54,129 nt of DNA, from positions 1 through 54,129 of the forward strand of contig NZ_JAKGCV010000007.1 in NCBI RefSeq assembly GCF_021556455.1, written 5' to 3'. The first letter of the stretch is position 1. Each line of letters opens with the position of its first letter. Made by a program: the position numbers and the translations under genes. The DNA is from Streptomyces fuscigenes (GTDB lineage: Bacteria; Actinomycetota; Actinomycetes; Streptomycetales; Streptomycetaceae). Positions 1 through 48,094 of the stretch are shown here, one piece after another. The notes under the pieces were generated by a model. The model had not been told where the DNA came from, searched no databases, and worked only from the letters and a program-made list of their open reading frames with translations.

Positions 1-160
1 CGCGCGGTCACCTTCGGAGACACGACGCGCGTTCCTACGGAACGCCAGCGATGCCACCGCGCTTCGCGCGATCGGTCGGCCTGCGGCCTCCCTTGGCTGG
101 TCACCTTCGGTGACCTCGGACCTTCGGTCCGGGCCCGGCCTTCGGCCGGTCCTGCTGGCT
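1..160. repeat. Telomere-like tandem hairpins, left end
   Basis: Six perfect hairpins follow each other, each with a three-base loop: 30-44 (arms CGTTCC, loop TAC), 58-70 (CGCGC, TTC), 78-88 (GGCC, TGC), 99-115 (GGTCACC, TTC), 118-130 (GGACC, TTC) and 135-149 (CCGGCC, TTC). Closely packed palindromes with three-base loops are the known architecture of Streptomyces linear replicon ends, where the 3' overhang folds for end patching. I infer that this is at or very near a telomere. The first bases do not match the common chromosomal telomere that I remember, so this would be an atypical type. Confidence 0.7.
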
Positions 161-886
161 GGCTACGAGGAGCGGGGACCTCGTTTCGGGGAAATCCCCT
201 GGTCTTACGTGGTTCTGATGGGGCGTCTCCGTTGTCCTGGTGCTTGATGCCGGGCCGGCCTCTCTCCTCCTCGTCCCTGCATCACTACATTATGTACCCG
301 CCCCCACCGCACGAAAAACCCCGCCACGACACACCGAACTGACGAACCATCACCACAACACACCAACAACCACCCCCCTAACTGGTCTATACTACTAATT
401 CCCATAAACACTCCCTAACCCTGCAAAAATTCCCCAAATATGCATGAATAGCAATACCCTGCCAGCACCCCAAAACAGCCTTTCCTTTTCCCCCGTAGAG
501 GCGGGCACCGATACACAAGCGCTCTAAAATGGGTCTACCGAAATAGCGGCGGCCCGTAGGGGCGGTTCCTTTCTGCCGATCTTCGGCTTCCGGTCTGAGA
601 CGTAGCGCCGGACCAAACTCGACCTTGGACATCTGCGGCATGACCAGGACCTTTCGCCAGGAGCACCTCGATGCTGTCCTGGCAAGTGCCCCAGTGACGT
701 CGAAACTCCTACCGCCTCGCCACCACCCGACCCGGGCCGAAGCCACGGCCAGCTGTGGGAGCTCCTGCTCTCGCCTCCACGGATAGCGGGTCAGCGCGGA
801 ATCGCCTGTCACCCGTGCGGGGCACCAAGGCCGAATAGGCTGCCCCAGCACACCGAGCACCTGATGGCAGACGGCAGAGGTACCAC
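161..886. other. Subtelomeric gene-free stretch with G-poor strand
   Basis: No convincing gene is visible. The plus strand from about 295 to 485 is strikingly poor in G and rich in A and C, and locally much more AT-rich than the rest of the window (for example around 395-455). Open frames on the minus strand here lack a good ribosome site and have atypical composition, so I leave them out. The stretch may be a spacer, a promoter region (TATACT at 388-393) or the site of a non-coding transcript. Confidence 0.4.
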
Positions 887-2176: not shown

Positions 2177-2794
2177 TCAGGCGCCAATGCTGATGCTCGA
2201 TACGTAGGCGTAGGCGGCGTACATGGAGTCGAGGTCTTGGATGACGTCGAGCCAGATGTCGTCCATAGCGTCCACGTCGCCGTCCGCGTAGGCGGCCACG
2301 ACGTCGTCCCAGATGTAGCGGCCTTGGATGCTGCGGACCTGGTCGACGTTGTGGCGTGCGCGTCCGCCGGTGCCGGGGCCGGCCGAGTAGCCGCCCAGGA
2401 CGTGGGACTGGTCGACGGGGTAGATCTCGATGCGTCGGCCTTGGCCATCGTTGTTGAGTAGGCGTACGAGGGCGCCGGAGCGGATCAGGTTCGCGCGGCG
2501 TCGCTCCTGGTATGCCTTCTCCACGGCGTCGCGCTTGGCCGCGCTGGGGTGTCTGCCGGCCTTCCAGGAGCGCAGCAGGCGGGGGCTGACGCCGTGCTCT
2601 TGCAGTGCCTTTTTCCCGGCGGGGCTGGAGAGGTAGCGCAGGCGGGCGTTGAGGCCGCGGTGGGTGGTGATGGGTGAGGTGATGCCGCCTTCTCGGACGA
2701 GGCGGTCGACTTCGGCCATGAGGGCTTCGGCGCCTTTCTTGCCCTGGGCGCCGAATTGCTGCCATGCGGGCCACAGTTCGGATGCTCTGGCCAT
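2177..2794 (-). CDS. Candidate telomere terminal protein (Tpg/Tpc-like)
   Basis: The 205-residue protein is close in length to the Streptomyces terminal protein Tpg (about 185). It has a basic N-terminal two thirds, an HTH at about 60-98 (HGVSPRLLRSWKAGRHPS) resembling the Tpg motif region, and an acidic, aromatic C-terminus from about 160. That layout is what I remember of Tpg. Terminal proteins bind the telomere and carry the hydroxyl that primes end patching. Its ATG overlaps the stop of the polymerase-like gene upstream (TAATG), so the two are translated together, as in tap-tpg operons. Position 2 kb from the left hairpins supports the role. Overall sequence identity to Tpg is low by eye, so it could instead be an unrelated small DNA-binding protein. 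Confidence 0.5.
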   Translation of the reverse strand: MARASELWPAWQQFGAQGKKGAEALMAEVDRLVREGGITSPITTHRGLNARLRYLSSPAGKKALQEHGVSPRLLRSWKAGRHPSAAKRDAVEKAYQERRRANLIRSGALVRLLNNDGQGRRIEIYPVDQSHVLGGYSAGPGTGGRARHNVDQVRSIQGRYIWDDVVAAYADGDVDAMDDIWLDVIQDLDSMYAAYAYVSSISIGA

Positions 2795-4200
2795 TACTGG
2801 TCGCCTCCGAGCGTGTATGTGCGCTTCTGTTTCACCTGGGACAGGTCGCGGCCTTCCCCGAACACCTGGCGCCAGTCACCGGCGACGTGCAATTCGTCGG
2901 TGCCGGACATTTCGATGACTGTCAGTCCGGACGCGTGTGCCTTCTGTGCTTTGCGCCAGAGGTTCGCGAATGCTTGCGCTCGGATAATGTGCATCCAGTC
3001 GGGCCGTCGAATCTCGCGGTTGGCGCTGGATTCTCCGATGGTGGACACGAACTTAGAATACATGAACTTCACGTATTCCGTGGTGAGTTCGTCGTCTTTC
3101 GCGATGGCTTCCTTGCGTACTTCCACCAGGGCGCGGCGCATTTTCTCGAGCAGCCCTTCGGTGCTGCCAGACGTCAGCGACTCGTGAATGGTGGGCGCCT
3201 TGCACAGGCCGTTTTTCGCGCAGTCGAGGAGGAGGCGAAGCGTGGGTTCTGCGATCCACAGGTCGCCTGGGACCTTCCGGGCGCCGAGCGGATTGGGGAG
3301 GTCGGAGGTCGTCCACTGGGGCGGGGTGATGCGGTGGATGCCCGAGCGTCGGGGGTCGAGGGCGGCCTCGTCACCGGGCGAGGGCACCAGCCGGCCGATC
3401 GGGAGATGGGTCTTGAGCGCGGCGAGGTAGGCGGCGTTCATGTCCAGGGCGGTGACGTCCAGGCGCATGAGGCCCGCGCCGGCGGCGCGGTGCAGCTCGC
3501 TCGCGCGCCACTTCGGCCGGCCTTCCCACACCTCGTCGGCGCCCTTCTGGCTCTTCTTCTTCAACAGGTCGGCGGTCGGAGGGAACTCCGTGTGCTCGTA
3601 GCGGCCGCCGACGCGGGAGAACTTGAACAGGGCCATCACGTCCGGAATCGCGCTCCTGGTGAGCGCCGCCTTCGCTGTCTCCAGGTCGCCCTGGTGCTCC
3701 GTCAGGGTCCGCGTGACCGTCGCCCGGATCTCGTCCGCGAGGGGGGCGGAGGGGGACGTGCGCCGCCGAGGCGCCGGGGCCGGGGCCGGGGCCGGGGCCG
3801 GCGGTTGCTCGGGCGACGGTTCGGGCTGCGCCGGCGCGAGGGGCGCCGGCACGCGCTCCGCGGGCGGCGCAGCGGGCACGGCGGGCGGGGGTGTGACGGG
3901 TGCGGGGCTGCCGACGGTGGGCACGGGAGCCGGCGGTGTCTGCCGTCCGCCCCGACTGTGCAACGCGGGGGCGAGCCTCTCGGCCGCGTGCGTCGGCCCC
4001 GCCAGCAGATCCAGCGGGAGCATCCCGTAGTGCGCGGCCAGCAAGTCGACGTCATCGAGGGACCAGGAGCGTTGCCCCTTCTGCTTGCGGGACACCTGGC
4101 CCTGAGTCTGCCCGATACCCGCAGCAAGGTCCGACTGCCGCTCACCGGTCTGCGCCATCAAGGCGGCCACGGTGAGCCGCAGCAGATCTTGAGTACTCAT
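2794..4200 (-). CDS. HTH protein with family-B-polymerase-like motifs (Tap/Tac-like candidate)
   Basis: The 468-residue protein has three parts. Residues 8-66 are an XRE-type HTH (SDLAAGIGQTQGQVSRKQKG). Residues 85-150 are a Pro/Ala-rich linker. The C-terminal domain (150-468) contains three segments in the order of DNA polymerase motifs A, B and C: LDMNAAYLAAL (252-262, like Dx2SLYP), EYVKFMYSKFVSTIG (375-389, like Kx3NSxYG) and MSGTDELHV (431-439, like YxDTDS). I infer a priming or patching polymerase for the plasmid ends, acting with the overlapping terminal-protein-like product. In-frame starts at 4212 and 4206 are alternatives. A 35-bp palindrome begins 18 bases upstream, suggesting autoregulation by its own HTH. 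No strong ribosome site is seen, so the mRNA may be leaderless. Confidence 0.5.
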   Translation of the reverse strand: MSTQDLLRLTVAALMAQTGERQSDLAAGIGQTQGQVSRKQKGQRSWSLDDVDLLAAHYGMLPLDLLAGPTHAAERLAPALHSRGGRQTPPAPVPTVGSPAPVTPPPAVPAAPPAERVPAPLAPAQPEPSPEQPPAPAPAPAPAPRRRTSPSAPLADEIRATVTRTLTEHQGDLETAKAALTRSAIPDVMALFKFSRVGGRYEHTEFPPTADLLKKKSQKGADEVWEGRPKWRASELHRAAGAGLMRLDVTALDMNAAYLAALKTHLPIGRLVPSPGDEAALDPRRSGIHRITPPQWTTSDLPNPLGARKVPGDLWIAEPTLRLLLDCAKNGLCKAPTIHESLTSGSTEGLLEKMRRALVEVRKEAIAKDDELTTEYVKFMYSKFVSTIGESSANREIRRPDWMHIIRAQAFANLWRKAQKAHASGLTVIEMSGTDELHVAGDWRQVFGEGRDLSQVKQKRTYTLGGDQ

Positions 4201-4217
4201 CACCATGACCACAAACT

Positions 4218-4252
4218 AGCATGCAGAATGCCAATCTGGCATTCTGCATGCT
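4218..4252. promoter_or_regulatory. 35-bp perfect palindromic operator
   Basis: Arms of 16 bp (4218-4233 and 4237-4252) match perfectly around the three-base spacer ATC. The core is ATGCAGAATGCCA on each side. It lies between the leftward polymerase-like gene, which encodes an HTH, and the rightward small gene at 4339. It is therefore placed to control both. I infer an operator bound by the XRE domain of the 4200-2794 product. Confidence 0.65.
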
Positions 4253-20173: not shown

Positions 20174-20445
20174 CGCTGAACGGCGCCTGCCTCCAGTGTT
20201 GAGCAGGGGGCTTGTGGTGCTCGCCCAAGCCGGTGGATGTTCGTGAGCCGCGGGGTTCCCAGCGCCTCGTGCTCTCCCTTGGGAGCGCCGTAGCGCCAGA
20301 TTGGGCGGTGCGGCTGCGTCCTCAATCAACTGGGCCCGGTTGCATGCCCGTTCGGCTCATGGCAGGAGCAGGCATTCGGGACACCTGTCGCAGTTGCGGA
20401 TCGATTACCTGCCATTACCCAGCCGACCTAGTAATGTTCGGCCTC

Positions 20446-21594
20446 ATGAGCATCCCAAGCCCTCGCGGAGACCGTGAGAAGCTAATCACCGCTCTTACGC
20501 CTCAGCTTCGTCGTCTGCTGAAGATCCGGGCGTTCGAGCACGGCATGGACATCCAGGACGCTGCGGAGCATGCCATCCGGGCGTGGTACGACCTGCCGAA
20601 TCCGCCCGAAGTAGCCACTGACGGAGCGAAGACCTGGGGCACGTTTCTGCCTCCCGGCGAGCCCGAAAAGTTCAAGGAAGCCTGTGCCGACCGCGGCGTG
20701 ACGTACGTTCAGGGACTCGCCCAGGCGCTCAGTCTCTGGCTGGAGGCCCATCCCTCGCCGACTGCGCCTCTGACTGCCCAGCCGGTCACGCGGGTCATAG
20801 TCGCCAACCAGAAAGGCGGCGTCGGGAAAACCTTCATCAGCAGCGGCGTCGCACAGGCCCTGGCGGAGTCAGGCAAGCGGGTCCTGATCGTCGACTACGA
20901 CCCCCAGGGCCACCTCACCTCGGAGCTCGGGTTCGAGGACTTGATGTACGAGGACGACGTGGAGACGCTCCTCATGCACATGGAGGGGACCGCGAAGGGC
21001 GACATCCACGACCTGCTCGTGGCACTGGACCATCCGCGGTTCGGCGAGCGGCTGCATCTCCTGCCGGCATCCGATGACGCGTTCCTTCGCGACGTGTCGC
21101 TGTCCAAGGTGTCCTTCAGTGAGGCTGCGCTCGAGCGAGCACTCGAACCGCTGGAAGCCGACTACGACGTCATCATCATCGACGGGCCGCCCAGCCTCGG
21201 CCTCAACATGGACACCGCGCTCTACTACGTACGCCGACGGGAGGGCGAGCTCGCCGATCGGTCGGGCGTGATCACTCCGGTGTGGGCCAACAAGGCCTCC
21301 CACCGGGCCTTCAAGCTCCTCACCAAGCAGATGAATGACCTCTGCGTGAAGGGCCGGATCAAGGTCGACTACCTGGGACTGGTCGTCAACGCCTACGACA
21401 GCCGCCGCGGAAAGCTCGTCAGCCAGAACAAGGAGCAGTGGGAGCGCAGCGCCTCTCCGGCAGTTCTCGCTGTCATCGGGGACCTCAAGGAAGGGCGCGA
21501 GGCGAGCGACGGGGAGATTCCGTTGCTGGAGTACGCCCCCGAGAGTGAGCACGCGAACGCGATGCGGGATCTGGCGAAGGAGCTGGCGGTATGA
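20446..21594 (+). CDS. parA: ParA-type partition ATPase with N-terminal extension
   Basis: The 382-residue protein has a deviant Walker A motif NQKGGVGKTF (121-130), VDYDPQGHL (Walker A-prime) and a Walker B-like DVIIIDGPPSLG. These identify a ParA/MinD ATPase that forms dimers on DNA and moves plasmid copies with ParB. The first 115 residues are extra: an RHH-like helical segment (LTPQLRRLLKIRAFEHGMDI) and a second helical part, perhaps for operator binding. ParA of the P1 type also carries an N-terminal DNA-binding region. ATG 20434 is an alternative start. The stop overlaps the ParB start (ATGA). Confidence 0.9.
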   Translation: MSIPSPRGDREKLITALTPQLRRLLKIRAFEHGMDIQDAAEHAIRAWYDLPNPPEVATDGAKTWGTFLPPGEPEKFKEACADRGVTYVQGLAQALSLWLEAHPSPTAPLTAQPVTRVIVANQKGGVGKTFISSGVAQALAESGKRVLIVDYDPQGHLTSELGFEDLMYEDDVETLLMHMEGTAKGDIHDLLVALDHPRFGERLHLLPASDDAFLRDVSLSKVSFSEAALERALEPLEADYDVIIIDGPPSLGLNMDTALYYVRRREGELADRSGVITPVWANKASHRAFKLLTKQMNDLCVKGRIKVDYLGLVVNAYDSRRGKLVSQNKEQWERSASPAVLAVIGDLKEGREASDGEIPLLEYAPESEHANAMRDLAKELAV

Positions 21595-30402: not shown

Positions 30403-32049
30403 TCATGACCCGGACATAAGGGCTGCTGTGAGGTCCGTGAGCCGGTAGCCCCGCACCCCCTTGTCGTCCTTGCTCGACGCGGCGCCCAGTAGTGCCGACA
30501 GTCGTCTCCCCTGCATGACCGGCGTGGTTTCTTCGATGCCGAGAGCCGGGGCCAGCTCGGACGTGGGCATAAACTCGACGCCCTTCTGTCGCATCAAGTC
30601 GATGCCCTGCTTGAGCGGGGAAATAGGCGCTTCTTCGACCGCCTTTTGCTGTCGGCTTTCCACTTCGTCCACGACGTCCCAGACGAACTTGTCGTGGAAG
30701 TCGAAGCCGCGAAGGAGTGTCGACCGCCCGTTTGCGAACAGGACACCCTGCCCCTTGATGTCGGGGTTGAGGAGGGCGGGATTGATCGGGGCCACGGTCT
30801 CGAAGTAGGTGTCTCCGAGTGCAACTTTGGCTGTTCCTTCTGAAGCCACATACATGCACATGCGGTAGAGGAACTGGTCGCGCACCATGACTGGAATGGC
30901 GTTCTGTGCCGGCCGCTGTGTCAGCAGGATCGTGGAAATACCGGACTCCAGGCATTTTGCGACCAGGGAGCGGGTTTTTTCCGCGATGCGGCGGGTGTCT
31001 TCCTTTCCTTCGTTGGATCCGTCGTTGGCGAAGAAGTCGGCGGCTTCGTCCACGATGAAGAAGACGGGCCGGAACTTCGGTGCAGGCTGCCGGTTCTTGA
31101 TGGCTTCCTGCATTTTCGTGTAGCGCCGCTCGGAGCGCGTATTCAGCTCGTCAACGATGCTTTCGAAGACGACGGGCTGATCGGATGCTTCGTAGCGGGT
31201 GGCAATTTTCGAGAACCTGGTCAGCCCGCAGAATTTACCGTCGAGGAGATACAGGTCGAATTCGCCGTACGCGATCAGCAGACACGTGATGAGTCCGTTG
31301 ATCAGCGTGGTTTTCCCCATCTGCGTCATGCCACCGACTAGGAGCGAGGCCTTTTCGAAGGTCGGCACGCCGGCGAGTTGGCCGGTGACGTCGTGCCCGA
31401 AGGGCACGCCGGGAAATGCCGCGATCTCCGCCCTGGTGGGCGTGGGGAAGGGCTGTGTGAACGGCGGCTGGTCGAGGACCAGGAGGCGCGCGCGCCGCTC
31501 GCTGTCGCGGCTGCGATCGAGCGTCAGGTGCAGCCGGGTCACGCCGAACACGCCGGCCACCTGACCCAGGCGACGTTCGACGTCGCCGTAGGTGCGGCCG
31601 GGCGGCATGAGGAAGTCGTAGACCGTGCCGGTCTTGACCTGCTCGATGGTGACTTCGTCGGCCCTGATGACCTGGTCGCGGCCGATGGCTCCGGCCGTGA
31701 GCAGCGTCGACGTCAGCTGCGGGTGCGCCAGGTCCGGCGCGACAGCGGCCTCTCCGGCGGGGGATTCCTCCCGCAGGACCGCGGGGGCCTCCTTGCCGTC
31801 CTCGCGCGCCCACAGGCGCCGGGCGGTGTTGCGGATGCGCCAGGCCAGGTAGCCGAGGCCGACCAGCCCGCCGGCCGTCACGAGGACGGTCGCGGGCCAG
31901 GACAGACCCAACTTGTCCTTGATCGCGGCGAGGCCGCCGAACACGATCACGATGCCGCCGACGGCGCCCGCGGCCTGTCCGTACAGCTCGTCGCTGCCGG
32001 AGTGGTCATGGTCGTGGTAACGCCTGCTGCGCGAGTTGCGTTGTGCCAC
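30403..32049 (-). CDS. FtsK/SpoIIIE-type DNA translocase (TraB-like)
   Basis: The 548-residue protein has two N-terminal membrane helices (about 29-47 and 53-70), an intermediate domain, and the FtsK motor: Walker A VGGMTQMGKTTL (238-249), Walker B FFIVDEAADF (330-339) and LLTQRPAQNAIP. A C-terminal winged-helix-like domain of about 80 residues probably recognises short DNA repeats, like the gamma domain. TraB proteins of Streptomyces plasmids move double-stranded DNA from donor to recipient mycelium by this means. The start is GTG 32049. The phased repeat array lies 11 bases past its stop. Confidence 0.87.
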   Translation of the reverse strand: MAQRNSRSRRYHDHDHSGSDELYGQAAGAVGGIVIVFGGLAAIKDKLGLSWPATVLVTAGGLVGLGYLAWRIRNTARRLWAREDGKEAPAVLREESPAGEAAVAPDLAHPQLTSTLLTAGAIGRDQVIRADEVTIEQVKTGTVYDFLMPPGRTYGDVERRLGQVAGVFGVTRLHLTLDRSRDSERRARLLVLDQPPFTQPFPTPTRAEIAAFPGVPFGHDVTGQLAGVPTFEKASLLVGGMTQMGKTTLINGLITCLLIAYGEFDLYLLDGKFCGLTRFSKIATRYEASDQPVVFESIVDELNTRSERRYTKMQEAIKNRQPAPKFRPVFFIVDEAADFFANDGSNEGKEDTRRIAEKTRSLVAKCLESGISTILLTQRPAQNAIPVMVRDQFLYRMCMYVASEGTAKVALGDTYFETVAPINPALLNPDIKGQGVLFANGRSTLLRGFDFHDKFVWDVVDEVESRQQKAVEEAPISPLKQGIDLMRQKGVEFMPTSELAPALGIEETTPVMQGRRLSALLGAASSKDDKGVRGYRLTDLTAALMSGS

Positions 32050-36361: not shown

Positions 36362-37114
36362 ATGGCCAGTGATGTGGGCGAACAGCGGCCCAAGTACCAG
36401 CGGATCGCCGACGACCTGAAGGCGGCGATCGAGTCCGGCGAGTACGGGCCCGGCGACCGGCTCCCGGGGGAGAGCGCGCTCGCCACTCGGTACGAGGTCG
36501 CTGCGCTGACGGCCCGCCAGGCTCTGAAGATTTTGCGGATCGAGGGCCTGGTGGAGACGAAGAAGGGGGCCGGCGCTCGCGTCATCGAGTTCCGCCCGAT
36601 TCGACGTCACGGCATCCAGCGACTCGCACGCGAGCAGTGGGGTGCCGGCAAGTCCATCTGGTCCGCTGATGAGGAGCGCCCAGTCACAATCGATGTCCGC
36701 GTAGACACGGTGGCCGCGCCGCGACACATCGCCCGAATGCTCGACGTTGACGAGGATGAGCTTGTGTGCGCTCGGTCCCGGCGCTTCGTGCTGGACGACA
36801 GGCCCGTCATGCTCGCGACCTCGTACCTGCCACTCGACCTGGCCGAGAACACAGCGATCATGAGCGTGGACACCGGCGAGGGCGGCACATACGCCCGGCT
36901 CGCTGAGATCGGGCACGCACCTGCTCACTTCCGCGAAGAGATCCGGTGCCGGCTGCCCGTTGCCGAGGAGGCAAAGGGTCTGGCCATGCCGCTGGAGCGC
37001 CCCGTAATCAAGCTCTGTCGAAGTGCGTTCGATGCGTCGCTGCGGGCAGTCGAGGTGAACGAGATGACCATGGACACAGCGGCGTACGTGTTGGAGTACG
37101 CGTTCGATGCCTGA
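36362..37114 (+). CDS. GntR-family regulator with UTRA domain (Kor-like)
   Basis: The 250-residue protein has an N-terminal winged helix (about 12-75: RIADDLKAAIESGEYGPGDR, then GESALATRYEVAALTARQAL). A UTRA effector domain follows (about 90-245), with VTIDVRVDTVAAP, LVCARSRRFVLDDRPVMLAT and VNEMTMDTAAYVLEY. Regulators of this class, such as KorSA and TraR, repress transfer genes of Streptomyces elements and respond to an unknown ligand. GGGAGA precedes the ATG. Four CCTCGTTAGCG-type boxes upstream are the probable operators, placed to shut off the transfer operon as well. Confidence 0.82.
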   Translation: MASDVGEQRPKYQRIADDLKAAIESGEYGPGDRLPGESALATRYEVAALTARQALKILRIEGLVETKKGAGARVIEFRPIRRHGIQRLAREQWGAGKSIWSADEERPVTIDVRVDTVAAPRHIARMLDVDEDELVCARSRRFVLDDRPVMLATSYLPLDLAENTAIMSVDTGEGGTYARLAEIGHAPAHFREEIRCRLPVAEEAKGLAMPLERPVIKLCRSAFDASLRAVEVNEMTMDTAAYVLEYAFDA

Positions 37115-37296
37115 GCACCCCCGCCCGACCATCTGGGACCCCCTCGTGACTTGTCATCAGGTGGGGGCCATCACACTCGCGAATGCAAAGAAACAACATC
37201 ACAAGGGCTTGTCGAAGCTCGTGCGCAGCGCCATACACGGGTTTTCAACATCCCCATACACATGGGATTCGCGGTCCTGGATCTAGGGTCGCGGCC

Positions 37297-38334
37297 ATGA
37301 CGATGGCGGAGGGGCACAGGGTGGGCAAGCATCGATCGGGGTGGCAACCGGACAAGTTGCGCGAGCAGCGCGAGGGTCATGGGCTGACTCTGGAGCGGGC
37401 TGGCGAGCGCCTTCGCGAGGTCGCCGAGCAGGCCAGGCTGAAAGGTATTCCGGCCGCGAATCCCCAGACCTTGTGGCAGCACGAACAGGGCGAGGTCTAC
37501 CCGGGCCCGCACTACCGACGTGCCTACTGCCTCCTCTACCGGGCGACCGAGCCGGACCTCGGCTTTCGTGCCGCGCTGCCGGGGGAGGAGACATCCTTCG
37601 TGCTGACGCCGATGGACCACCGCCTCAACGGCGCCCACGTCCTTGCCGTTGAGCGAGCGATCCACCGCATCTCGCCGGGTACCGAGGATGCTGGGCACTT
37701 CGCTCTCCAGCAGCGGATCATCGACGCCTGGAAGCGCCGGCACACCGGCGGCGACCCGCACCGCCCCGTCCTGATCCTGGTGGGCGGATACGCCGGTTCC
37801 GGGAAGACCGAACTCGCCCGCTTCTTCGTCCAGCTCACGGGCTGGCCGCTGCTCGACAAGGACCCGCTGACCCGTCCGCTGGTGGAGCGTCTCCTGGTGG
37901 CGCTGGGCGGCGACCCGAACGACAGGCACACAGACCTCTACCGGGAACGCGTCCGTTCGGTGGAGTACGACTGCCTCATGCAGTCGGCCATGGCGAACAT
38001 CAAGTGCGGGATCAGTACCGTGCTCTCGGCCCCGTTCATCTCCGAGATGACCGACCCGTCCTGGATGCAGCGCCTGTCCAACCGGGCCGCGTCCATGGGT
38101 GTCGACGTCTTCCCCGTGTGGGTGCGCTGCGACGAGGAGTCGATGCGCGAATACATCACCTTCCGGTCCGCCGCTCGCGATGCGTGGAAGCTCGCGCGGT
38201 GGGACGAGTACATGGCGACCATCGACCTGGACCTGCGCCCCGCGGTCCCGCACCTGGTGGTGGACAACCGGCTGGGGACCGCGGTCACGCTCGCGGACCA
38301 GGCCCGGCAGGCGATGGGGGCGATGTACGCGTGA
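37297..38334 (+). CDS. HTH plus P-loop kinase-like ATPase (zeta-toxin/AAA33 type)
   Basis: The 345-residue protein begins with an XRE-like HTH (about 16-88: PDKLREQREGHGLTLERAGE and ANPQTLWQHEQGEVYPG). A kinase-like P-loop domain follows: Walker A GGYAGSGKTELARF (163-176), LLDKDPLTRP (185-194) and late basic residues (EEYITFRSAARDAWK-like region near 285-300). The order matches zeta-toxin/AAA_33 or nucleotide-kinase enzymes, which phosphorylate small molecules. ATG 37297 may be read leaderlessly; GTG 37321 has GGAGG upstream. It overlaps the next kinase-like gene (GTGA), so the two work together. The substrate is unknown. Confidence 0.65.
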   Translation: MTMAEGHRVGKHRSGWQPDKLREQREGHGLTLERAGERLREVAEQARLKGIPAANPQTLWQHEQGEVYPGPHYRRAYCLLYRATEPDLGFRAALPGEETSFVLTPMDHRLNGAHVLAVERAIHRISPGTEDAGHFALQQRIIDAWKRRHTGGDPHRPVLILVGGYAGSGKTELARFFVQLTGWPLLDKDPLTRPLVERLLVALGGDPNDRHTDLYRERVRSVEYDCLMQSAMANIKCGISTVLSAPFISEMTDPSWMQRLSNRAASMGVDVFPVWVRCDEESMREYITFRSAARDAWKLARWDEYMATIDLDLRPAVPHLVVDNRLGTAVTLADQARQAMGAMYA

Positions 38335-40660: not shown

Positions 40661-40945
40661 GTGGGCGCAGACCTGATCAGCGCCGTCGATGCTCTCCTCA
40701 ATCAACGTCCAGCGCTTCCGCCACACCCTGCGCGTGGCGCACTCCGCAGGGCGGGAGGCCTGACTCAGCAGCAGGTCGCTGATGCTCTTGGGGTCAAGCG
40801 ACTAGCGGTTGCGCGCTGGGAGAGCGGCGAGAGCGAGCCGCGGGCCCCCCACCGGGAGGCTTACGCTCACCTGCTCAAGCGCCTGGCAGTAGCACATCCG
40901 ACGATAGGGCTGCAAGGCAAGGAGGCCAGTGATACCGCCACCTAG
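40661..40945 (+). CDS. XRE HTH protein resembling the N-terminus of Tap
   Basis: The 94-residue protein starts at GTG 40661, four bases after GGAGGT. It reads DLISAVDALLNQRPALPP, then LTQQQVADALGVKRLAVARW and ESGESEPRAPHREAYAHLLK. As I remember it, the Streptomyces telomere-associated protein Tap begins with the same AVDALL...LPPPAER...RREAAGLTQ...W-ESG...EPRPP...AYARLL pattern but is about 740 residues long. This protein stops after the HTH. It could be a Tap truncation kept as a regulator, or an independent small XRE regulator. A hairpin follows at 40959-40991. Confidence 0.65.
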   Translation: MGADLISAVDALLNQRPALPPHPARGALRRAGGLTQQQVADALGVKRLAVARWESGESEPRAPHREAYAHLLKRLAVAHPTIGLQGKEASDTAT

Positions 40946-44447: not shown

Positions 44448-47400
44448 TCAGGGATGAGGGACGCCTGCGGCCTCAATGGCTGTCTCCAACTTCTCCAGCA
44501 ACGGCCTAAGAGCGACCGAGTCCAGGGCCAGGCTCACTTCGATGTCCCGAAGATCATTCAGGGCTTCCCGAATTCTAGGAATCCTTGGACCGCTTACAAG
44601 GAACTGCTGAAGTTCCTCAGCGGCCCTTTGCCAGTCAGACGCCCCGCAGCGCATTACGAGCAGGTTTCCCTTGGCATCGGTTACCGAGTAGGCGCCTGAT
44701 GTGATGTTAGCTTCAAAATATTCTGTAGCTATCTGCCAATGCTCCTCTGCCCCGGCTCGACTGAGGACGTGCATCGCGATCGCGATGTGGTAGTGGCACC
44801 AGGCCAGGTCAGGGTTGAATTTCACTGCTCGAAGCAGATCGATAAGGGCATCCTCGTAGCGTCCGATTTCCCGGTAGAGCACGCCGCGGTTCGCAAGTGC
44901 CAATTCCTGATTGGGGTTGAGTTCGATGGCGCGGGTGAGGTCGGTTAGAGCATCCTCGTAATTTCCCGTGAGATGATGAGTTTCACCCCGAGTGGCGAAG
45001 AACCAGCCTTCATCGGGCTTGAGTTCGATGGCGCGGGTGAGGTCGGTTAGAGCATCCTCGTAATTTCCCGTGAGATGATGAGTTTCACCCCGAATGGCGA
45101 AGAACCAGCCTTCATCGGGCTTGAGTTCGATGGCGCGATCGAGGTCGGTGAGAGCATCGCTGTAATCGTTCATCTGGCGGTACGTTAGACCGCGGTCGGC
45201 GATGTTCAATGCGTCATTGGGGTTGAGTTCGATGGCGCGATCGAGGTCGGTGAGAGCATCGCCGTAACGGCCCATCGCGTGATAGGTGTGACCGCGGCTT
45301 GCAACGATCCACGCCGATTCCTGGTTGAGTTCGATGGCGCGGCTGAGGTCGGTGAGGGCATCGTCGTAGCGCCCCATCGAGTGGTAGGTCTGGCCGCGAT
45401 AGGCGAGGGCTGATTCCTGGTTGAGTTCGATGGCGCGGGTGAGGTCGGTGAGGGCATCGTCGTAGCGCTCCATCGAGTGGTGGACCTCACCACGGATTGC
45501 GAGAGCCCATCCATTGTCGGCGTTGAGTTCGATGGCGCGGGTGAGGTCGGTGAGAGCATCTTCGTTACGGTTCATCGTGCGGTAGATATGACCGCGGGCA
45601 GTGAGGTTTCCAACGTGGTCGGGGTTGAGCTCGATGGCGCGGGTCAGATCGATGGCGGCGTCCCCATAGCGCCCGCCCCCAATGTGAAATGCGGCACGGT
45701 TTGCAATGATCCAGACTTCGGTGGGGTCGAGTTCGACGGCCCGGTTGAAGTCGGCGAGCGCTGCGTCGTCGTCCTCAAGGGCCTCGTGGATCAGCGCGCG
45801 GCAGAGCAGGTACTCGCTCTCGGTGGGCGCCAACTCGAGGGTTTGGTTGAGGTTGGTGAGCGCTTCGGCATGGCGCCCTGTGAGGCGGTAAGTCTCTCCG
45901 CGGCCGTAGTGGGCGCGTGCCAGGTCGGGGGTCAGGTCGAGAGCCGCTGCGTAGTCGGTAAGGGCTTGGTCGTATGCGCCAGCGAGGCGGTAGTCGCGGC
46001 CACGTAGGGCGTGTGCCAGGGCGCGTGTAGCAGGGGCGAGTTCCGGCGCACCGAGGAGGCAGCCCAGGACGGCGATGGTGCCCGCTTCTTGTTCGGCGGC
46101 CTGCTGCACGCGTGGCCCCCACCGGAGCAAGAGCGGGTCATCTGTGTCTCGGCCAGCCAGCATGAGGGTCTGCGCCCATCGGCGCACGACGGCGATGTCC
46201 TGATCGCAGGCGTCAACGAGGTCTGCCAACGCCTCGGGCCATGCCCGGAGCGGATCAGCGCACAGCATGTGGTACGTCTCGTTAAGACGTGATTCCAGCC
46301 AGTCGGTGTCGGTCTCGTGACCATCGAGGGCTACCTCGCGGGTCTCACGCCGACGACGGTAGGTAGCGGCTAGGTGCTCGTGCTGCTGGCGCCAGCGGGT
46401 GGCGGAGCGGGTGCGCTGCAGGCGCAGCATGGGAGCGCGGACGACGTCGTGGTAGCGGGCACGCCCTACCTGGCCACTGACGAAAGCAAGCCCGCACAAC
46501 CACGCGTATGCGTCGGCGGCCCCTTCGGGCGCGGTGGCACGGTAGATGTCTTCGTCAAGTTGCAGGGGGAGGGCACAGGCGAGCGCGGAATCGCGCAGGG
46601 CGGTGTCGGTGATCCACTTGAGGAAGCGGTCCACCGCGGTCTCGGAGGGGTCCGAGACATCGTCGGCACTCTGGGGGCGGGCCTGGGCGAGGAGGTCGAC
46701 CAGGACCGGCAGTCGCCCAGTCAGCTCCAGTACGAGTTCGACGATCGGCTCGTTGGTGACGCTGTGGCGGGCCAGCAGTTCGCGGGCCTCCTCCTTGCTG
46801 AACACGTCCAGCGGCACGTCTTGAATTACAGCTCGGCTGTCGGCCCATACGGCGGGATCGAGGCGTCCCTGCCCCGACAGCACTGCGATGATATTGGCCT
46901 CCAGCTCTCCATACCTGTCTGTCGTGAGGACGTCCCGTAGCCATTCGCCGATCACCGGACTCGTTACCTCGAACACGTCGATGAACAGCACTACCCACGT
47001 CCGGCGCTCCGCCACTTTGCCGAGGTCGTCTAGGAAGGTTGGAGTGAGGACCTGAAGCGGAGAGACGACCAGCTTGGCATCGTCGTGACTGCGAAAGCGT
47101 GCCCCGGCCAGACTCCACGCCCGGTCGGTGAGCTGCGCCAGGTTCTGTCTGTCCATGGCGCCCGCCACCGGCCCCATGCCCGGAACCATCCCCAGGCCGG
47201 CCAGACCGGCCGCGGCCACAGCTGTGCTTACCGCCGAGGGCGGCCGACTGCCGGAGCCGGTAGCAGCGGGCGTCGCCGGCGCCGGCGCGCTCTCGGCCTC
47301 GTGCCGGCGCTGGCGATACGTCGCCAGCAATTCATCGAACCGCTTCAGCGCGGCACCTTGGCGCTGCAACTGGGCGCTGATCGTCTCCATCGCCTCGATG

Positions 47401-47654
47401 ACGCTGTGTACGTCGTCATCGATGTAGACGGTGGCCGCTTGCTGGGCGCGCGCGGCAGCTTCCCACTGCCGCACCAGGGTCGTTTTGCCGACCCCAGCAT
47501 TGCCGTGCACATGGAAAAAATAGTGACAGTCCTCGGCCTGCGGGTCGCGGGCCAGATTGTCCCGGAAGGCGGTCAGCTGACTGGACCGCCCGACGAACCG
47601 GTTCGCGCGCTGCCGCCGATTCAGCTCCTGCCGCGACAAACCCCGCCTAGCCAT
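44448..47654 (-). CDS. Large P-loop NTPase with C-terminal TPR array
   Basis: The 1068-residue protein has three parts. First comes an NTPase domain: NRFVGRSSQLTAF (18-30), Walker A GNAGVGKTTLV (51-61), and Walker B RTWVVLFIDVFEVT. Second is a helical middle with winged-helix-like segments to about 540. Third are about 12-13 TPR units of 34 residues (about 545-1005), such as YEDALTDLTRAIELKPDE. This plan is that of STAND NTPases, which sense a trigger through repeats and then oligomerise; several act in phage defence or regulation. No effector domain is apparent at the N-terminus. Two TPR units are almost identical in DNA, showing recent expansion. Start at 47654 after GGGGGAGAAGG. Confidence 0.8.
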   Translation of the reverse strand: MARRGLSRQELNRRQRANRFVGRSSQLTAFRDNLARDPQAEDCHYFFHVHGNAGVGKTTLVRQWEAAARAQQAATVYIDDDVHSVIEAMETISAQLQRQGAALKRFDELLATYRQRRHEAESAPAPATPAATGSGSRPPSAVSTAVAAAGLAGLGMVPGMGPVAGAMDRQNLAQLTDRAWSLAGARFRSHDDAKLVVSPLQVLTPTFLDDLGKVAERRTWVVLFIDVFEVTSPVIGEWLRDVLTTDRYGELEANIIAVLSGQGRLDPAVWADSRAVIQDVPLDVFSKEEARELLARHSVTNEPIVELVLELTGRLPVLVDLLAQARPQSADDVSDPSETAVDRFLKWITDTALRDSALACALPLQLDEDIYRATAPEGAADAYAWLCGLAFVSGQVGRARYHDVVRAPMLRLQRTRSATRWRQQHEHLAATYRRRRETREVALDGHETDTDWLESRLNETYHMLCADPLRAWPEALADLVDACDQDIAVVRRWAQTLMLAGRDTDDPLLLRWGPRVQQAAEQEAGTIAVLGCLLGAPELAPATRALAHALRGRDYRLAGAYDQALTDYAAALDLTPDLARAHYGRGETYRLTGRHAEALTNLNQTLELAPTESEYLLCRALIHEALEDDDAALADFNRAVELDPTEVWIIANRAAFHIGGGRYGDAAIDLTRAIELNPDHVGNLTARGHIYRTMNRNEDALTDLTRAIELNADNGWALAIRGEVHHSMERYDDALTDLTRAIELNQESALAYRGQTYHSMGRYDDALTDLSRAIELNQESAWIVASRGHTYHAMGRYGDALTDLDRAIELNPNDALNIADRGLTYRQMNDYSDALTDLDRAIELKPDEGWFFAIRGETHHLTGNYEDALTDLTRAIELKPDEGWFFATRGETHHLTGNYEDALTDLTRAIELNPNQELALANRGVLYREIGRYEDALIDLLRAVKFNPDLAWCHYHIAIAMHVLSRAGAEEHWQIATEYFEANITSGAYSVTDAKGNLLVMRCGASDWQRAAEELQQFLVSGPRIPRIREALNDLRDIEVSLALDSVALRPLLEKLETAIEAAGVPHP
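44919..45122. repeat. Recent 102-bp tandem duplication of a TPR unit block
   Basis: Bases 44919-45020 and 45021-45122 are nearly identical; a single difference, in ATGGCG/GTGGCG within the second half, is visible. Each encodes one TPR unit (GWFFA(I/T)RGETHHLTGN). Exact period 102 keeps the frame, so the array can grow or shrink by recombination. Confidence 0.85.
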
Positions 47655-48094
47655 CCTTCTCCCCCTCAGCTGCGGACCATGCACGCTGCCTACGAGCGCG
47701 CACCCATCTTCGCCCCCGGGATCGCCTGGCGTGAAGTGTCAGTGGATTTGGGTCAGGAGAAGCCCGGCGAACGGCTCACTGAAGCAGCACGGGTGCCACG
47801 GCTCGCTCAGTGAGCCCACGTCCTCAAGCCGGCGCTCTCCGAGGCTTTCCCCTCATCGCGTCTGCCTCGAGAGTCGGCGTACCAGGCAGGGAGTTTTCAG
47901 CCCCCTACCAACTGCCGAGGTGGTTACGGTCCAGTTCGGGAAAATACGGTCGGATTTCCGCATCGGGCAGGCATGCGACACGCCGTTTTGGCAAATTATG
48001 CCCGATTTCGCGCCCGGCAATTGCCGCATTACGGCTCCCGGGGCTCGTTGATCGCTTTTTGGCGGAACACAGCCCGTAAGACTATGGTCACGAC
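47655..48094. other. Gene-free stretch upstream of the NTPase gene
   Basis: No gene is supported. The part from 47920 to 48050 is less GC-rich and holds TACGG-type short repeats (TTACGGTCC, ATACGGTCG, TTACGGCTC). It probably carries the leftward promoter of the NTPase gene. Confidence 0.35.

Follow-up and report, generated by a model that had tools for sequence, protein, structure and literature searches.

The closest described systems to the locus presented here are the terminal-protein pairs of Streptomyces. In vitro, the purified Tap and Tpg pair and the purified Tac and Tpc pair each incorporate the first nucleotides, and the 2015 paper that shows this reports no polymerase motif in Tap or Tac and calls them a new class (PMC4513846). 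Actinobacteria typically lack family B polymerases, according to a 2026 survey (PMC12926913). GtpB-GtpA of S. griseus 13350 is another described terminal-protein pair (PMC7205883). For telomeres of the 'Sg2247' class, a 2021 paper states that no known telomere proteins were found, and the albus genome paper assumed a yet unidentified telomere pair (PMC3937824). Here we describe two overlapping genes, whose products we call P0002 and P0001, close to the left end of a Streptomyces contig of 54,129 bases (C775, from a draft genome of 811 contigs), the whole of which is referred to as the window. Probably, these genes encode the cognate end-patching pair of Sg2247-like telomeres, a pair that would be built on a minimal phi29-like polymerase.

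Both are minus-strand genes located 2.2 kb from the left end of the window, and they overlap by one base in TAATG. This is the arrangement described in the original prediction, which had been made from the letters of the stretch. The true start of P0002 may be an ATG a few codons further in. The features of the pair are as follows.

Positions 2177 to 2794, minus strand: terminal-protein candidate P0001, 205 residues, with a helix-turn-helix (HTH) at residues 36-106 (hhalign to Tpg, AlphaFold2 model).
Positions 2794 to 4212, minus strand: telomere-associated polymerase candidate P0002, 472 residues (AlphaFold2 model, Foldseek and VIA matches to phi29 polymerase, profile homology to Tap).
Positions 3988 to 4197, minus strand: XRE HTH, P0002 residues 6-75 (Pfam HTH_26, VIA).
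Positions 2797 to 3747, minus strand: predicted phi29-like polymerase domain, P0002 residues 156-472 (VIA to 2pyj_B).
Positions 3415 to 3447, minus strand: motif A, LDMNAAYLAAL, residues 256-266, with catalytic-Asp candidate D257 (conservation).
Positions 3034 to 3075, minus strand: motif-B-like stretch YVKFMYSKFVSTIG, residues 380-393 (conservation, partly by construction of the fetch).
Positions 2884 to 2910, minus strand: motif C, MSGTDELHV, residues 435-443, with catalytic-Asp candidate D439 and G437 in place of the first Asp (conservation).

An AlphaFold2 model of P0002 built from 80 sequences had a mean predicted local distance difference test (pLDDT) score of 85.1, with 302 of the 472 residues scoring at least 90. 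A Foldseek search against the PDB returned nine matches with E <0.001, all of them phi29 DNA polymerase (E 2.7e-7 to 2.7e-6). The best VIA match, 2pyj_B, reached a Z of 18.3 over 261 residues (root-mean-square deviation 3.7, 17% identity, model residues 177-470), the other phi29 entries scored about 17 and the remaining listed family-B polymerases 9-11. Because the Z scores to phi29 exceed those to other family-B enzymes, the best structural relatives of P0002 lie in the protein-primed branch. The C-terminal domain is predicted to adopt a phi29-type palm and fingers fold, and here the original prediction, which had called the domain polymerase-like, agrees with the model. Ahead of this domain the protein holds an HTH and a low-confidence proline-rich linker, and no more. 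Residues 3-78 match the HTH domains of XRE-type proteins in VIA (Z 9-10), and a weak XRE-type HTH was the sole Pfam match to P0002 (HTH_26, E 5.5e-4, 20.6 bits against a cut-off of 22). No 3'-5' exonuclease domain was seen in P0002 in either the model or the fold comparison.

Relatives of P0002 were collected from GTDB genomes (278 confirmed, of which the best 80 were kept) and from plasmids, and were aligned as 87 sequences, P0002 included. As the patterns PDWMH[IN]I and [EA]YVK[SAF]MYS were used to fetch the relatives, and alignment rows were chosen for the string TDELH, part of the conservation of the motifs is by construction; taken as sequences, the three motifs are nevertheless not chance. 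D257, N259, L270, P271, G273, K382, G393, T438 and D439 are invariant (87/87), as are Y385 and K387 in the motif-B-like stretch, where the fetch itself contributes, and H442, with residue 262 being Tyr in 77 sequences and Phe in 10. TDELH is present in 80 of 80 fetched loci, and the only match above 100 bits without it, L007, retains the T, D, E and H.

The phi29 polymerase sequence (from EU771092) reads FDVNSLYPAQMYSRLLPYG and YCDTDSIHLTG where P0002 reads LDMNAAYLAALKTHLPIG and MSGTDELHVAG. In motif A, the D, N, Y, LP and G of phi29 (D-V-N-S-L-Y...L-P-Y-G) recur in P0002 at the same spacing, and in motif C so do the T, D, H and G (T-D-S-I-H-L-T-G). Of the three motifs that had been proposed to follow family-B order and spacing, A and C therefore hold for phi29, whereas B does not: YVKFMYSKFVSTIG is a loose match to phi29 motif B, and because its K-to-G spacing differs from that of phi29 (11 versus 8 residues) it was not counted as evidence. 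P0002 would thus share with phi29 polymerase the predicted palm and fingers, the spacing of motifs A and C and, putatively, a protein-primed role, while differing in its added HTH, its lack of an exonuclease domain and the loss of the first motif-C Asp. It would also patch an end where phi29 polymerase copies a genome, and no resemblance was reported between the phi29 terminal protein and P0001.

The lost Asp counts against the proposed catalysis, as residue 437, at the position of the first motif-C Asp of phi29, is Gly in all 87 sequences. If the domain were dead, P0002 would be a telomere-binding HTH protein that only positions the terminal protein, leaving another polymerase to prime, and linear replication in vivo is reported to need DinB1 or DinB2 (PMC4513846). 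We consider this unlikely, given that D257 and D439 are both invariant and that Tap, its homologue, suffices for in vitro priming (PMC4513846). Moreover, the family-B group PolB_SITDG, known here by its motif alone, also has the first motif-C Asp replaced, in that case by a hydrophobic residue (PMC7544198).

The kinship to Tap emerged from profile comparison. Against eight Tap sequences, hhalign aligned the P0002-family domain at Prob 72.7 (P 3.2e-5); against 30, the values were Prob 95.7 and P 1.1e-8 over 215 columns, with a global P of 7e-10, and the reversed P0002-family profile used as a control gave P 0.33. Judged by these profiles, the P0002-family domain and archetypal Tap are distant homologues. 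The alignment pairs ALDMNAAY of P0002 with GIDVNMAF of Tap, and RPDWMH with RPTWRP. Tap retains the motif-A-equivalent Asp in 28 of 30 sequences, and the Asp of its SDC-x-VY stretch (29/30) falls just past the aligned part, at about the place of motif C and not aligned residue for residue. By the same kind of comparison P0001 and Tpg are distant homologues (Prob 91, P 1.1e-6, 129 columns), in line with the terminal-protein-like partner that had been proposed.

The two pairs resemble each other in operon order, N-terminal HTH and location near replicon ends, and the polymerase-like domain of Tap is homologous to that of P0002, both having D-x-N and, further downstream, an Asp. They differ in that Tap, at about 720 residues against 472, has about 200 additional conserved residues, absent from P0002, between the HTH and the homologous domain, and in that Tap/Tpg go with archetypal telomeres and P0002/P0001 with the Sg2247-like class. 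P0002 gave no match to the NCBIfam Tap model (NF047542, full-length cut-off 600 bits) at E up to 1. Tac/Tpc of SCP1, compared by description only, share the end-patching task; Tpc, of 259 residues, is reported without homology to Tpg (PMC3572947). The original prediction had seen in the locus a third system, distinguished by a priming polymerase of its own. The homology to Tap and Tpg speaks against an unrelated system, and as Tap/Tpg and Tac/Tpc already prime in vitro (PMC4513846), priming does not set this pair apart.

The end of the window beside the pair provides its proposed substrate.

Positions 1 to 180, no strand: Sg2247-like telomere with terminal palindromes, in which GAA, GTA and GCA triloops close the stems of the 3' overhang (pSCAT match, plasmid-tip matches, fold).

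Window positions 15-249 and 16-249 match the very ends of the linear plasmids NZ_CP109086 and NZ_CP108380, 15-160 matches NZ_CP109451 at 4 nucleotides from its tip, and 101-176 matches CP108176 at no more than 160 nucleotides from its tip. These four are the only plasmid records that match the window end, at two places each, and the four best plasmid homologues of P0002 among the matches listed sit on the same four records. The first 30 bases of the window equal pSCAT, counted from its second base, at 26 positions (the next best place in the window reaches 20), and across bases 31-60 the alignment is lost (7/30). PMC8743542 lists pSCAT as a telomere of Sg2247 type and gives GGA, GAA and GTA as the commonest loops of that class. 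The single 3' strand of the window's left end folds at -51.6 kcal/mol (z -2.73), a stability equalled by one of 200 shuffles, with stems capped by GAA and GTA and one by GCA; the end is thus as rich in hairpins as had been claimed. It differs from archetypal palindrome I, CCCGCGGAGCGGG, with which our archetypal probe starts. On the strength of these matches and the fold, we conclude that the left end is a true telomere of Sg2247-like type. No terminal inverted repeat was found between the two ends of the window, and for this reason the right end probably reflects a break in the draft assembly.

To relate the pair to telomere class across replicons, PLSDB was probed with the pSCAT end for Sg2247-like tips and with the right end of pSHJG1 (L136) for archetypal ones. 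The pSCAT end matched 44 records, 32 of them at most 300 nucleotides from the tip, and the other 12 were set aside as not terminal. P0002-family genes were taken from 108 distinct records listed, the three protein searches having matched 159, 161 and 263; such a gene occurs in 22 of the 32 Sg2247-like-tip records and in none of the 12 internal-match records. For the archetypal end, 60 of 119 matched records were listed, and four were dropped as not terminal. Counting two pSHJG1-type records with both kinds of end as archetypal only, and taking as lacking an archetypal tip those with none among the matches listed, a family gene is carried by 22 of 30 Sg2247-like-tip records and by none of 56 archetypal-tip records (Fisher p 3e-14, a value that overstates independence because the records are related to each other). 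In 12 plasmid records (for example, NZ_CP108874 922-971), an Sg2247-like core lies 0.7-20 kb inside the end, with no listed family gene; these internal cores are possibly fused or extended ends.

At the genome level, a 23-base signature of the P0002 gene was present in 18 of 150 Streptomyces genomes, that of the window included, and its backwards control in none among the rows listed. The signature lies near both ends of five replicons, 1.4-14.5 kb from the tip, one of 338 kb and four of 8.5-12.1 Mb. The description of the pair as plasmid-borne is therefore correct for the plasmids, but too narrow for these four large linear contigs. Sg2247-like sequence was found at both ends of G128, and the core at the inspected end of G025:C2 and, cut short, of G065, while the assembled ends of G049 and G068 were without Sg2247-like sequence. 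A full-length Tap over the cut-off was found in none of seven records, comprising six P0002-family records and pSHJG1.

Database records name members of the family 'helix-turn-helix' or 'transcriptional regulator', and one could regard the pair as an ordinary XRE regulator with a small DNA-binding protein and no role at telomeres. Set against the predicted polymerase fold, the homology to Tap and Tpg, the association with one telomere class and the location near replicon ends, that explanation appears highly improbable.

Several results weigh against an Sg2247 end-patching pair of polymerase descent. Among the matches listed, 10 of the 32 Sg2247-like-tip records have no P0002-family gene, and 30 of the 44 pSCAT-end matches span 60 nucleotides or fewer. 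Archetypal Tap over the cut-off is present in 9 of 18 signature genomes and 89 of 132 others (p 0.19), so that mutual exclusion with archetypal Tap at the genome level is unsupported. In favour of the pair, a P0001-type gene lies directly downstream of the P0002-type gene in 68 of 80 loci (64 by a distance rule and four whose open frame begins at a more upstream position, the contig end truncating one of these), and at L097 the terminal-protein gene is 3.4 kb from the polymerase-type gene; against it, in the remaining 11 (L040, L041, L042, L043, L045, L046, L051, L052, L055, L064 and L074) none was found nearby. Regarding the fold, hmmsearch with the family profile against PDB sequences gave no polymerase match, and Pfam assigned no polymerase family to P0002; for 80 members, 25 of 57 families were shown, and none of these was a polymerase family. 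Comparison by hhalign with 32 phi29-like polymerases gave P 0.8 for the P0002 family and 0.24 for Tap. The pairwise score with phi29 was reached by shuffles in 12 of 500 cases with BLOSUM45 and 88 of 500 with BLOSUM62, and in 148 of 1000 for consensus sequences and 695 of 1000 for the Tap consensus. Pfam on eight Tap sequences and a PHROGs search were likewise negative or weak for a polymerase link. These profile, family and shuffle results rule out a sequence-only proof of the link between P0002 and polymerases; because such methods find none, it is the model and the motif constellation that carry the polymerase fold.

A further possibility is that the pair is a plasmid or chromosomal form of GtpB/GtpA, compared here by description only, in which case the fold alone would be new. 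The original prediction had named Tap/Tpg and Tac/Tpc as the known systems and had omitted this one. A 2008 paper reportedly deals with GtpB-GtpA. A branch of the family 45% identical to P0002 is common in S. anulatus, S. cyaneofuscatus and S. globisporus. These species are kin of S. griseus. Like P0002/P0001 as proposed here, GtpB/GtpA is a terminal-protein pair described for a telomere of non-archetypal kind, and GtpA, a terminal protein encoded with GtpB, has 18% identity to Tpg (PMC7205883), which fits the distance of the P0001 family. The same paper likens the telomere of SirexAA-E to those of GtpB-GtpA strains, and family member L050 lies 14-24 kb from the left end of SirexAA-E. Conversely, the linear plasmid pRLB1-9.2 of RLB1-9 carries both the P0002/P0001 pair and an Sg2247-like tip, and PMC7205883 reports neither a Tap nor a Tpg homologue for the RLB1-9 plasmid, which it writes as pRLB1-9.1. 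GtpB/GtpA may belong to the P0002/P0001 family, and we hold this identity to be a tentative alternative that falls short of even chances and is compatible with the mechanism given below.

We return to P0002/P0001 as the pair of Sg2247-like telomeres. Our best reading of the analysis is that they should work like Tap/Tpg, yet they fail the Tap family model and go with another telomere class. A mechanism drawing on the observed gene pair, its conservation, the predicted fold, the homology to Tap and Tpg, the telomere class and the co-occurrence would run as follows. P0002 would act like Tap, with its XRE HTH (two HTHs in split relatives) binding telomere DNA. Its C-terminal domain, with the fold of phi29 (protein-primed family B), would serve as a minimal polymerase that lacks an exonuclease and would attach the first nucleotides, opposite the 3' overhang, to a P0001 hydroxyl. 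P0001 would then remain covalently linked to the 5' end, and the remaining gap would be filled by a host polymerase.

Several hydroxyls of P0001 are candidates for the priming residue. The AlphaFold2 model of P0001 had a pLDDT of 88.7 and matched known folds through the HTH (36-106) alone, weakly (Z 6.7); outside the HTH no PDB fold was reported, which excludes nothing. DNA is attached to T114 in S. lividans Tpg (PMC3572947), and the corresponding loop of P0001 holds S130, a position that is Ser or Thr in 59 of 66 sequences. This first guess is unsettled because 7 of the 66 have neither residue there, and in 6 of 66 terminal proteins the whole loop is without Ser or Thr, a further point against the proposal. 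S190 (Ser or Thr in 66/66) and Y195 (66/66) are better conserved than S130, as are Y54 and Y95. S190 and Y195, the best conserved hydroxyls near the C-terminus, are candidate priming residues, alongside S130 in the loop.

Upstream of the operon and elsewhere in the window, additional elements were identified.

Positions 4218 to 4252, no strand: perfect 16-bp inverted repeat, its arms exact reverse complements, directly upstream of the operon.

A near-identical repeat lies upstream of the closest relative, L019, and shorter ones in more distant relatives; the score of the window's repeat was equalled by 3 of 120 random 130-base stretches of the window. The repeat is a candidate operator for the P0002 HTH. 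Other plasmid-type genes in the window encode a ParA-like ATPase (20212-21594), an FtsK/SpoIIIE protein (30403-32049), a GntR regulator (36362-37114), an AAA protein with a sub-threshold zeta-toxin match (37183-38334) and an AAA/TPR protein (44448-47684). A short frame at 40667-40918, on the plus strand, encodes a solitary HTH of Tap type (Tap profile, 77 bits, positions 11-94), and short matches akin to it occur in NZ_CP109086 (74845-75198) and NZ_CP102517 (50273-50584).

Some relatives exhibit a different gene arrangement. L006:2995-4832, like many relatives that are about 50% identical, is a three-gene operon. A small, overlapping gene of its own encodes the XRE HTH in these split relatives, and their polymerase gene contains another HTH, of Tap type, together with a CxxC..H stretch. 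Ten of the 40 listed P0002-type matches (H3, H5, H8-H10, H12, H13, H15, H16 and H40), and also L008:1300-2742, fall under a gene annotated as 'acyltransferase', apparently in error.

Priming by Tap and Tac being already known, the new point, as the model presents it, is a telomere polymerase recognisable as family B. Searches of open-access literature, with closed journals not covered, found no further report of Tap as a family-B enzyme or of proteins for Sg2247 ends. The result for P0002 suggests what the new class of Tap and Tac (PMC4513846) is. We lean towards the view that Tap-type enzymes, with archetypal Tap among them, are protein-primed family-B polymerases that have diverged strongly from a phi29 ancestry, having lost or degraded the exonuclease and acquired an HTH that reads the telomere, with P0002 as the minimal form and the missing Sg2247 enzyme. 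The pair is a concrete candidate for the one assumed in the albus genome paper (PMC3937824), and the model together with the motifs points to the probable active site of a telomere-priming enzyme. If this view is correct, Streptomyces would maintain its linear chromosomes with a domesticated replicase of phage or plasmid type, and related enzymes would solve the end problem in bacterial linear chromosomes and in phi29-like phages.

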